A stretch of 64,000 nt of DNA from Spirochaetota bacterium (GTDB lineage: Bacteria; Spirochaetota; UBA4802; UBA5550), in the NCBI GenBank assembly GCA_017999915.1, contig JAGNKX010000022.1:1-64000 (forward strand), read 5' to 3'. A program made the position numbers and the translations under genes. Shown here piece after piece: positions 35,448 through 39,060 of the stretch. The stretch's first letter is position 1. Each line of letters starts with the position of its first letter. Under the pieces are notes generated by a model that saw only the letters and a program-made list of their open reading frames with translations, was not told the origin of the DNA and ran no database searches.

Positions 35448-35880
35448 GATTTATCCTGTGATCGGGCATTCGTCGACGGTTATGCAGCAGGCTTAAGGGC
35501 TTTCCACTGGCTGCTCCATCAATTACAAGATCGATTCGCTGTGCCCGCGATGACGGGTGTCTTGAAATTTTTTGAAAAAAAAGTGGACGATTATATTATT
35601 AATTAGTATATTATAAATTAATGAAATACTTGCTTTATGGATGCAGGAGCAGATAATATTTAACAGCACATGTTATCCTACTAACTTAAAGTGTTTACCT
35701 CCAACCCCGCGCAAGCGGGTTTTTTTTATTTAAAATCAAGAATAAGTATCTCAAGGTCGGGATAGCCCCGACATGAATAGTAATGTAGCCCTTTTTGGAT
35801 AATAAAGATAATTTTTACTTTACTGATTCATGATTGATGTCTACAGGTTTACAATGTCGGATAATAATCTGATCGGAGAT
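35448..35880. other. Intergenic region with terminator
   Basis: No gene is seen. Includes a short terminator at 35703-35728 and a CCCGCGATGACGGGTGTC segment around 35540 resembling widespread environmental repeat fragments. A second small hairpin GTCGGG/CCCGAC is near 35757-35773. Confidence 0.45.
35703..35728 (+). terminator. Rho-independent terminator
   Basis: CCCGC (35706-35710), GCAA loop, GCGGG, then eight T. It is about 260 bp after the DUF362 gene, so it may end a longer 3' region. Confidence 0.7.
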
Positions 35881-36387
35881 ATGTCCTTGAAATTCATCGC
35901 CGATTTTCACATACACTCCCACTTTTCCGTGGCCACGAGCGGGAACCTTGTGCCGGAGCACCTGGAGCACTGGGCGCGCCTCAAGGGGATCGACGTGGTG
36001 GGCACCGGCGACTGCATCCATCCCGGATGGCTCGACGAGATCAGGGAAAAGATGGAGCCCGCCGGAAACGGCCTCTACCGGCTTAAAAGCCGGTACCGCC
36101 TTGAAGAGTCGCGCTACCTCACGGGAACAAACATGCCCCGGGACGTGTATTTCGTCCTCACCGGCGAGATCAGCAGCATCTACAAGAAGAACGGCAAGGT
36201 CCGCAAGGTGCACAACCTCTGCGTGTTTCCCGATATCGCCGCGGCCGAAAAGGTCCAGTCCAGGCTCGACCGCATGGGGAACATCAGGTCCGACGGAAGG
36301 CCTATCCTCGGCATCGATTCCAAGATCATCCTGGAAATGGTGCTGGAGTCGTCGGAGCAGTCGTTCCTCATACCCTGCCATATATAG
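35881..36387 (+). CDS. Endonuclease Q-like PHP domain, N-terminal part (interrupted by TAG)
   Basis: About 168 residues from the ATG at 35881, which gives the family-like start MSLKFIADFHIHSHFS; ATGs at 35830 and 35854 are also in frame. The PHP metal ligands HIHSHFS and GTGDCIHPGW match the EndoQ (TIGR00375) family, which nicks DNA 5' of deaminated bases. The frame ends at TAG 36385-36387 right after IPCHI. Homologues read tryptophan there (PAHIWTPWF), and the same frame continues immediately with TPWFSVLGSKSGFDS into the next entry. So this is the head of one 1,060-codon gene broken by a TGG-to-TAG change, either real or a sequencing error. Confidence 0.82.
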   Translation: MSLKFIADFHIHSHFSVATSGNLVPEHLEHWARLKGIDVVGTGDCIHPGWLDEIREKMEPAGNGLYRLKSRYRLEESRYLTGTNMPRDVYFVLTGEISSIYKKNGKVRKVHNLCVFPDIAAAEKVQSRLDRMGNIRSDGRPILGIDSKIILEMVLESSEQSFLIPCHI

Positions 36388-36402
36388 ACCCCCTGGTTTT
36401 CC

Positions 36403-39060
36403 GTGCTCGGGTCGAAGTCTGGATTCGACAGCATCGATGAGTGCTATGACGACCTGACGAAGCACATCTTCGCCCTGGAAACGGGCCTGTCCAGCGATCC
36501 CCCCATGAACCGGGCCTGCGGCTTCCTCGACTGTTTCACCCTGGTGTCCAACTCCGACGCCCATTCTCCGGAGAAGCTCGGCAGGGAGGCCAACATATTC
36601 GACACGGAGCTCTCCTATGGCGCCATCTTCAATGCGCTCCGGGACGGCGAAGGCTTCAACGGCACCATAGAGTTTTTCCCCCAGGAAGGGAAGTACCACT
36701 ACGACGGGCACCGGAAATGCGGCATCCGCTGGGACCCCCTTGAGACGATGCGGCACCGGGGGATATGCCCGGTGTGCGGGAAACCGGTGACCCGGGGCGT
36801 CATGTACCGCGTGGCTGAGCTGGCCGACCGGCAGGAGCCCGGCGGCCTCGCGAAGGCCACCTTCAACTCGATTACCCAGCTCCCGGACCTCCTGGCGGAG
36901 CTCCTGGGCCAGAAGAGCGCAAAGTCGGGAAAGGTGACAAAGGAATACCACCGCCTGATCAACGCCCTGGGATCGGAATTTTACATTCTCCTTGACGCGT
37001 CCCCGGCCGAGTTGCAGGAGGCCGGCGGGGAGGTCCTGGCCGAGGGGATAAGACGCCTCAGAAGCGGCAATGTCATCATAGAAGAAGGCTATGACGGAGA
37101 ATTCGGCCGCGTTAAGGTCTTCAAGGAAGGGGAGGCGCGGTCCTTCACCGGCGGAGGCCTCTTCGGCGGCGCGGCCGCTCCGGCCTCCGCTGAATCGTCG
37201 TCCTCTGTCACATTCAATATCGCCGAGTTCAAGGAGCTTCATGAGAAGCTGGGCCTTCAGCAGAGCGGGCCCCGCGTCCTCTTCGACCTGCCCGAGGGAG
37301 CGGCCGGCCAGGCCCTGACGAAGGGCCTCACCGATGACCAGCGCGCCGGCATCGAGCATGGCGAGGGCCCCTGCATGGTCATTGCGGGCCCCGGCACCGG
37401 CAAGACCGCCATCCTTACAAGAAGGATCCTTCACCTGGTGAAGAACCTGGAGGTGCCGCCGGAGGAGATCCTCGCCGTCACCTTCTCGAACCGCGCCGCC
37501 CGGGAGATGCGGGAGAGGGTCGAGGCGATCATGGAAGCCGACAAACTCGCCATATCCACTTTCCATGCCTTCGGCCTCGGCATCCTCAGGGAGCAGTGCG
37601 CCGCCGTCGGCAGGAGGGAGGATTTCGTCATAGTCGACGAGGATGACATCCCGGAGATCATGGCGGGCATCATCAAGGATGAAAAGAAGTTGAGCCGGAT
37701 GGTCCGCGCCATCGAAGCCGCCAAGCAGGGCGGTGAAGCCGATGCCGAGACCGCCAAGGCCATGGGTAAGTACGACGAGGAGCTGAAGCGCCTCAACGCC
37801 GTGGACCTGGCCGACCTCATCGCCCTGCCGGCGGCGCTCCTGAAGCAGAATCCGGATATCCTCGCCGAATACCGCCGCCGCTGCCGGTGGATACTTGTGG
37901 ACGAGTTCCAGGACATCAACGCCGCACAGTACGAATTGCTGAAAATCCTCGCCGGGGAGGGGAGTCCCAATCTCTTCATGATCGGCGACCCGGACCAGGC
38001 GATCTACGGGTTCCGCGGCTCCGATGCGCGGTTCCTCGCCCGCATGATCGAGGAATATCCTGCCACGCGTTTGATCCGCCTTGACCGGAGCTTCCGCTGT
38101 CCGGACCCGGTCATGCGCGCCGCCTCCCAGGTCCTGGGCAGGGAGAGCGCCGTCGCGGGCCGCGACATCGACATGAAGGTGCAGATCCAGGAGATGAACA
38201 CCGACCTCTCCGAGGCTGACTGGATCGCCGCGACCATCGAGAAGGCCATGGGAGGCCTCCGGAGCTTTTCCATGGACAGCGGCATTGCCGAGGGTGATGC
38301 GGATGATGACGGGGTGAGTCTCGGCGATTTCGCGGTCCTGTGCCGCTCCTCGTTCCTCTTCGACGCCATCATCGAGGCCTTCAATAACCACGCGGTGCCG
38401 TACCAGGTGGCGGGGAGCGAATCCCTGGTGCGCCGCGAGCCCTACCGGCAGGCGGTGCGGTCCCTGAAAAAGATATTCTATTCCGGCTCTGACCCCGCGG
38501 TGTCCCTGGCGGTGACCAGCGACATCTGGGGGATGATAAAAAAGGGCGACCGCGTCGCCGACGTGCTCAAGTTCCTGATGGTCTTCAACGACGCGCCGGA
38601 GGACGCCGTCCGCCGCATGGTATCCTTCGCCGAGCCCTACGGCGGCTCCTACCATGATTTCTTCAGGGCCTGCTCCCTGCGCCAGGGCGCCGACGACAGG
38701 GACGACCGCGCCGAGGCGGTGTCCCTCATGACCATTCACGCCTCCAAGGGCCTGGAATTCGACACGGTCTTCATTCCCGCCTGCGAAAAGAGGATCATAC
38801 CCTTCGAGCTCTTCGGGGATAAAGACGACAATGAGCTGGCCGAGGAGGAGCGGCTTTTTTACGTGGGGGTGACCAGGACCGTGAAAAACCTCTATCTCAC
38901 ATACGCGAAAAAGCGCGCTGTCAAGGGGAGGATCCTTAAGCAGGAGCGGAGCCCCTTCCTGGACCGTCTCGAGGAAAAGCTTATAAAGAAGGGAAAGCGG
39001 GAGCCGGGGAAGAAGTCGAAATCCGACGACCTTCAGCTGGACATGTTCAAGGACGAGTAG
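36403..39060 (+). CDS. Endonuclease Q C-terminal part fused to UvrD-type helicase
   Basis: This is the same reading frame as 35881-36387, continuing after the amber codon; 36403 is only the first possible start (GTG). Residues 1-150 finish the EndoQ part: VSNSDAHSPEKLG (PHP ligands) and the zinc-binding CPVCGKPVTRGVMYRVAELAD. From about 300 follows a superfamily 1A helicase: AGPGTGKT near 327-334, DEFQDINAAQYELL, GDPDQAIYGFRGSD, ASKGLEFDTVF, and YVGVTRTVKNLYL. The fusion would join cutting at deaminated bases with strand unwinding. If the stop is real, only internal starts could make the helicase. A GCTCTGACCCC word lies in frame at 38486. Confidence 0.88.
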   Translation: MLGSKSGFDSIDECYDDLTKHIFALETGLSSDPPMNRACGFLDCFTLVSNSDAHSPEKLGREANIFDTELSYGAIFNALRDGEGFNGTIEFFPQEGKYHYDGHRKCGIRWDPLETMRHRGICPVCGKPVTRGVMYRVAELADRQEPGGLAKATFNSITQLPDLLAELLGQKSAKSGKVTKEYHRLINALGSEFYILLDASPAELQEAGGEVLAEGIRRLRSGNVIIEEGYDGEFGRVKVFKEGEARSFTGGGLFGGAAAPASAESSSSVTFNIAEFKELHEKLGLQQSGPRVLFDLPEGAAGQALTKGLTDDQRAGIEHGEGPCMVIAGPGTGKTAILTRRILHLVKNLEVPPEEILAVTFSNRAAREMRERVEAIMEADKLAISTFHAFGLGILREQCAAVGRREDFVIVDEDDIPEIMAGIIKDEKKLSRMVRAIEAAKQGGEADAETAKAMGKYDEELKRLNAVDLADLIALPAALLKQNPDILAEYRRRCRWILVDEFQDINAAQYELLKILAGEGSPNLFMIGDPDQAIYGFRGSDARFLARMIEEYPATRLIRLDRSFRCPDPVMRAASQVLGRESAVAGRDIDMKVQIQEMNTDLSEADWIAATIEKAMGGLRSFSMDSGIAEGDADDDGVSLGDFAVLCRSSFLFDAIIEAFNNHAVPYQVAGSESLVRREPYRQAVRSLKKIFYSGSDPAVSLAVTSDIWGMIKKGDRVADVLKFLMVFNDAPEDAVRRMVSFAEPYGGSYHDFFRACSLRQGADDRDDRAEAVSLMTIHASKGLEFDTVFIPACEKRIIPFELFGDKDDNELAEEERLFYVGVTRTVKNLYLTYAKKRAVKGRILKQERSPFLDRLEEKLIKKGKREPGKKSKSDDLQLDMFKDE

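Follow-up and report, generated by a model that had tools for sequence, protein, structure and literature searches.

An in-frame amber codon in a Spirochaetota gene that belongs to an EndoQ-UvrD fusion family widespread among bacteria

The gene at positions 35881-39060 of the 64,000-nucleotide window analysed here (the whole stretch presented above, from contig JAGNKX010000022.1 of the Spirochaetota bacterium assembly GCA_017999915.1) raises a simple question: how is one to explain a single amber codon inside the EndoQ domain of an EndoQ-UvrD fusion gene whose frame is otherwise open? Translation with table 11 confirmed what had been read from the sequence alone, that is, a single frame of 1060 codons on the forward strand whose sole internal stop is the TAG of codon 169 (36385-36387). 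The reading frame of the EndoQ domain is interrupted there, and the rest (35881-39057) is open, with catalytic residues and helicase motifs kept, up to the TAG at 39058-39060 that ends the fusion gene in the normal way. We suggest, with a probability of roughly one half, that the interruption is a very recent nonsense mutation from TGG to TAG. There is probably nothing unusual in the amber codon as such; of more lasting interest is the family to which the gene belongs, in which a lesion-specific nicking enzyme is joined to a UvrD-type helicase. In what follows, G000 is the genome under study and other G labels are its relatives, C labels are contigs of this genome (the window lies on C22), and L labels are loci.

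The idea that the segments on the two sides of the TAG belong to one EndoQ domain is borne out by matches that continue across it. The N-terminal EndoQ (PHP) part, 168 codons ending in PCHI (35881-36384), matches PfuEndoQ from the PDB (E=2.2e-13) and positions 2-62 of the TIGR00375 profile; after the TAG, the match to PfuEndoQ resumes at residue 142 (E=8.7e-22) and that to TIGR00375 covers profile positions 137-374, so that the remaining EndoQ domain, with its SDAH motif and cysteines, spans 36388-37185. An intact relative aligns to PfuEndoQ residues 5-413. Scored separately, the two halves reach 32.4 and 92.1 bits with TIGR00375, against a curated cut-off of 326.6. When 38 fusion proteins are aligned, E94, H109, H165 and S223-H226 (alignment numbering) correspond to Glu76, His84, His139 and the SDAH motif, and all of them are invariant in the 38 rows; the equivalents of Glu76, His84 and His139 belong to the segment ahead of the TAG. 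PMC8307549 and PMC4357722 describe the roles of the EndoQ catalytic residues and motif; according to the former, Glu76, His84 and His139 hold the active-site zinc and single alanine substitution of each abolishes cleavage. A structure model built with the TAG read as tryptophan has a mean pLDDT (predicted local distance difference test) of 82.1 and a pTM (predicted template modelling score) of 0.61; its residues 1-433 match PfuEndoQ 5zb8_B with Z 42.8 over 391 residues and a root-mean-square deviation of 2.5, a fold comparison which, with that pTM, is silent on the packing of the two halves. The whole domain of Endonuclease Q (PfuEndoQ; TIGR00375; 5zb8, 7k30) is therefore represented here by sequence and fold, with Glu76, His84, His139 and SDAH kept, whereas the gene differs from it in being fused to a helicase, in having relatives with tryptophan in place of Phe141, and in the TAG interruption found in this genome.

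The second half begins after a weakly conserved linker of low model confidence (37153-37323), which was delimited by the comparison of substitution rates and by the model. The downstream domain (37303-38994) matches PF00580 (UvrD; E=1e-70) as well as PF13361, and it harbors the Walker A and DEFQD motifs together with both the N- and C-terminal domains of UvrD; model residues 473-1036 match UvrD, PcrA and Rep with fold Z scores of 33-35. It can be considered a superfamily 1A (SF1A) helicase of the UvrD/PcrA/Rep kind, sharing with these 3'-5' DNA helicases the two Pfam domains and the fold, but it misses their equivalog cut-offs widely (pcrA 345.8 vs 911.2, uvrD 270 vs 1144.45, rep 336 vs 951.45). 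A separate UvrD/PcrA-like helicase gene is present elsewhere in the same genome (on C1, L002).

Other genomes have the fusion as well. In a species-representative collection we analyzed the best 80 of 457 relatives found, a set which overlaps that of the 20 relatives described below (several contigs are identical). According to searches with motif patterns, a single open frame contains both the EndoQ part after the TAG site and the Walker A motif in 76 of these 80 loci; of the other four, two (L105 and L108, 59-60% identical) have an EndoQ without a helicase in frame and two leave the contig before the helicase. The N-terminal PHP motif is in the same frame in 73 of the 76, two of the others starting at a contig edge and one (L084) having lost it to a frameshift. 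The pattern of helicase motif VI is absent in 11 of the 76, and eight leave the contig before it. The record titles among the best 80 loci include Spirochaetes, Elusimicrobia, Cloacimonadota, Aminicenantes, Bacteroidales, Calditrichaceae and others. The arrangement proposed by the sequence-only reading is thus shared, and the sequences place the gene in an EndoQ-UvrD fusion family that is widespread among bacteria. No description of such a fusion appeared among the papers listed by searches of an open-access library, although Figure 9A of PMC4357722, on the domain structures of bacterial EndoQ, may draw one.

The same relatives define the codon that the TAG replaces. Within a set of 59 genomes (the one under study and 58 relatives) the gene was matched in 23, i.e., in 22 relatives, and the site was read in 20 of them, leaving out G018, whose match ends short of it, and G054, whose match is weak. 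The codon is TGG in all 20 and in all 80 loci of the larger collection, in agreement with the single TGG-to-TAG difference previously proposed, and no stop occurs at this site in any of the relatives read. The tryptophan column is also invariant in the alignment of the 38 fusion proteins, in which the row of this genome was assumed (TAG written as W). The motif PAHIWTPWF had been attributed to EndoQ proteins in general; its tryptophan does hold throughout the bacterial fusions, but it is not EndoQ-wide, since PfuEndoQ has Phe141 at this position, two residues after His139. Four of the five same-genus relatives have one open frame spanning EndoQ and helicase; the remaining one (G005, L084) is arranged in the same way, but its EndoQ half contains a separate frameshift at about L084 4400-4900.

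The age of the stop can be constrained from the rest of the gene. Compared with the sister species G003, the segment ahead of the TAG has a ratio of nonsynonymous to synonymous substitution rates (dN/dS) of 0.044, the remaining EndoQ domain one of 0.093 and the helicase one of 0.096. Three outgroups agree with one another at 612 columns; among these, 13 private changes fall on the lineage under study and 13 on that of G003. In simulations whose branch lengths were set from pairwise dS, 5% of the branch without constraint would have added about 27-29 changes and 3% about 15-17. An old pseudogene, or an old loss of function, was consequently rejected, the frame being intact and constrained. The absence of decay implies that the stop arose within the last few percent of the branch, or that the protein is still made, or that the base is wrong.

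The first of these three possibilities corresponds to the reading that we prefer. In the intact fusion, as inferred from the two families, the EndoQ half would nick DNA on the 5' side of bases that are deaminated or missing, and the UvrD half would then unwind from the nick, letting the damaged stretch be replaced. EndoQ is described as nicking 5' of uracil, hypoxanthine, xanthine or apurinic/apyrimidinic sites (PMC4357722, PMC8307549 and PMC6202378), and removal by a helicase after incision by EndoQ and EndoV is proposed in a figure legend of the first. In the genome under study, a single recent change from TGG to TAG would halt translation two residues past the equivalent of His139, the third catalytic residue, so that the terminated product would end within the active-site region and would be devoid of the rest of the nuclease and of the helicase; the cell would then make no fusion protein and at most an inactive piece of about 168 residues, and the lesion would be too young for decay to have appeared elsewhere in the gene. 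One premature stop interrupting a conserved gene that is otherwise intact also characterizes bacterial genes with one internal stop, that is, recent pseudogenes and ‘‘pseudo-pseudogenes’’ (general knowledge and PMC11078800), from which the present case differs in that the fusion gene is known from its sequence and not from expression.

Some observations weigh against a very recent mutation. Constraint without decay is equally expected from an assembly error or from readthrough, and the species is represented by a single strain. Moreover, the five best-supported in-gene stops of this genome, selenocysteine codons apart, are all TAG, while 50-65% of new stops are expected to be TAG on the basis of codon usage; the corresponding chance, 0.03-0.11, is a hint only and mildly favors a tolerance of amber codons.

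These stops come from a scan based on hexamers, which recovered the TAG of the fusion gene (a scan based on codon usage missed it and was discarded). The scan gave 59 candidates in 1.27 Mb and, when carried out on 2.47 Mb (45%) of the 5.45 Mb genome, 111 candidates (47 TAA, 34 TGA and 30 TAG). Twenty-seven of the 111, chosen for having no nearby start codon, were inspected, mostly by eye; the count of stops that are all TAG is accordingly soft, as TAA and TGA cases may hide among the other 84. Four further in-gene TAGs with some, uneven support emerged in this way. The one at C2:46609 lies in a gene with PrsW and cyclic nucleotide monophosphate (cNMP) domains, and G003 has CAG at this position; those at C4:85912 and C7:98307 lie where the frames of relatives run through, the relatives' codon at the site not having been read; that at C2:322599 is spanned by an acyltransferase Pfam profile, a homologue being found in none of 19 other genomes. 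The four genes concerned, each open apart from its one TAG, are located at L221:5619-7709, L235:2129-3418 (minus strand), L309:4886-6322 and L288:17804-19258 (minus strand). Another TAG, at C2:139405 in a phage-structural-like gene, passed the 1.27 Mb scan, failed the stricter 2.47 Mb one and could not be confirmed, and the candidates at C1:25585 and C1:778301 were rejected as neighbouring genes.

According to a second explanation, the consensus or assembly is wrong at this base, and the organism has TGG and makes a normal fusion protein. We regard this as the less probable account, even if it is a serious one. It would fit a lesion of a single base in a gene without decay elsewhere, and the four further TAGs and the unconfirmed one within 2.47 Mb, together with an apparent frameshift in a uracil-DNA glycosylase (UDG) gene (see below), would agree with a modest error rate; the same-genus relatives in the species-representative collection are metagenome assemblies. 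On the other hand, random errors should yield TAA and TGA as well (the TAG share being about 0.5 without transition bias), and errors appear to be infrequent here. Indeed, when the contig of the window was compared with G003 (116 frames from C38:1-140000 of that genome), 36 frames were matched at at least 50% identity, all of them covered for at least 80% (15,221 aligned codons), and the only gene-body stop among the 36 was the TAG of the fusion gene. A further 11 stop columns are confined to the first 15% or the last 3% of five frames, which were taken as overpredicted in length. In the comparison with G004, 29 of 77 frames match, and 12 further stop columns are interpreted as lying near frame ends or in frames antisense to known genes. 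Of the three explanations put forward by the sequence-only reading (error, recent loss and readthrough), an old loss can therefore be set aside and readthrough is unsupported, which leaves chiefly an error and a very recent mutation.

Readthrough of the UAG, by a natural suppressor or in a site-specific manner, would allow some full-length EndoQ-UvrD to be made and, if it were scarce, the stop would set the level of the fusion. It would account for the constraint that is not relaxed after the stop and for the all-TAG set of in-gene stops; we nevertheless regard it as unlikely. Release factor 1 (RF1) is intact (523.6 bits vs a cut-off of 423.25), and TAG terminates 323 of 1515 long frames in the 2.47 Mb, tig, lon and the fusion gene itself being among the genes that end in TAG, as was previously noted. 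The best match to pyrrolysyl-tRNA synthetase (PylS) is below the cut-off (28.5 bits vs 178.15). A genome-wide reassignment of UAG, already judged improbable from the local use of TAG, was rejected on these grounds. The fusion gene does resemble genes with pyrrolysine or reassigned UAG in having an in-frame UAG with coding sequence on both sides, but its genome differs from theirs in having RF1 and common TAG terminators, no PylS over the cut-off and no CTA tRNA among those retrieved.

The search for an amber suppressor tRNA, which had been suggested, has so far yielded none: a CTA anticodon is present in none of the 51 tRNA hits of a whole-genome family search (ARAGORN: 49 with default and two with relaxed/intron settings), nor was one found by ARAGORN with default settings in the 2.47 Mb, where tRNA-Sec and tmRNA were detected. 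As the tRNA-Sec found by ARAGORN is missing from the 51 hits, an odd suppressor tRNA could escape in the other 55% of the genome. Three ‘CTA’ hits of a relaxed run (-ps80) were taken as spurious amid very many such hits. A readthrough driven by RNA structure was also rejected: the 100 nucleotides after the stop fold like their shuffles (z 0.14; the stop-less genes of G003 and G004 give z -1.90 and -0.16). In addition, the relatives read have no stop at the site, and the replaced codons differ (TGG here, CAG in G003 for the PrsW gene), so that no single dedicated residue is indicated.

A further possibility is that the TAG is tolerated in a split gene, the helicase being made alone from an internal start. 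The long and still constrained frame downstream, which a GTG at 36403 opens for 885 codons, would permit it, and a same-genus relative likewise has only its EndoQ half interrupted. Among the 11 in-frame ATG, GTG or TTG codons at 36388-37400, however, the first 10 fall within the EndoQ domain, and the eleventh, ATG 37375, is just before Walker A; none of the 11 yields a whole helicase without a fragment of EndoQ, and no clear ribosome-binding site was seen by eye. The strong constraint on the EndoQ part after the stop would also be unexpected if only the helicase were produced. A split gene was not seen in the relatives, where 76 of 80 loci are fused and L105 and L108 have an EndoQ without an in-frame helicase; in particular, the five same-genus relatives do not show the separate N-terminal gene and dedicated helicase start that had been indicated as the arrangement speaking against an interrupted fusion. 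We judge this explanation very improbable.

A broader view would regard the lineage as tolerant of amber codons. Occasional decoding of UAG, whether through near-cognate reading or by a tRNA that has escaped recognition, might keep TAGs at tryptophan and glutamine codons; in a related version, the lineage would have just lost much of its repair of deaminated bases, and the transitions that create TAG (at TGG here, at CAG in the sister species) would be the first footprint of a mutator. We attach very little weight to either version. As regards the repair genes, a UDG whose match to PF03167 extends over the full 141 positions without a change of frame was found in 10 of 20 genomes (E 2e-39 to 6e-37), nine others having weaker matches only. 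In the genome under study, the best match falls into two reading frames at C4:210195-210667 (profile positions 1-84 and 61-141), which gives the appearance of a frameshift; a weaker match at C2:102603 is open, and EndoV was not found in this genome at E 0.001. The fusion gene is thus not alone in having such lesions, whether these are real or technical, as the split UDG, the frameshift of G005 and the other TAGs indicate.

The significance of the locus depends in part on which explanation holds. An intact fusion would be a single polypeptide that initiates excision repair where bases have been deaminated. If the very recent mutation is real, the lineage would be a natural knock-out of it; if amber tolerance were true, it would be an unusual case of decoding.

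As for the beginning of the gene, inspection of the sequence revealed a GGAG at 35875-35878 (forward strand), a possible ribosome-binding site, which is 8 nucleotides upstream of a TTG at 35887 and 2 nucleotides upstream of the ATG at 35881; judging from this spacing, the TTG may be the true start.

Two in-frame TGA codons were observed elsewhere. Just right of the window, an AhpC/TSA-family frame (C22:66742-67347, minus strand; L175:2742-3347) has a TGA (C22:67080) in FNRGFA*PYC, and a DUF1573 protein at L288:15426-15815 (minus strand; C7:95602) has one in SAG*GCT, the asterisk marking the TGA. The former is probably a selenoprotein and the latter probably a second one; a tRNA-Sec gene lies at C1:334899-334990. 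Moreover, a tRNA-Ile(GAT)-like gene of the same genome (C4:288254-288354, minus strand; L072) has a 27-nucleotide insertion in the anticodon region. Finally, the ends of C3, C4, C9, C23 and C26 and the start of C15 lie no more than about 100 bases from a tRNA gene, and some coincide with one, which suggests that the contigs break at repeats or integrated elements located there.

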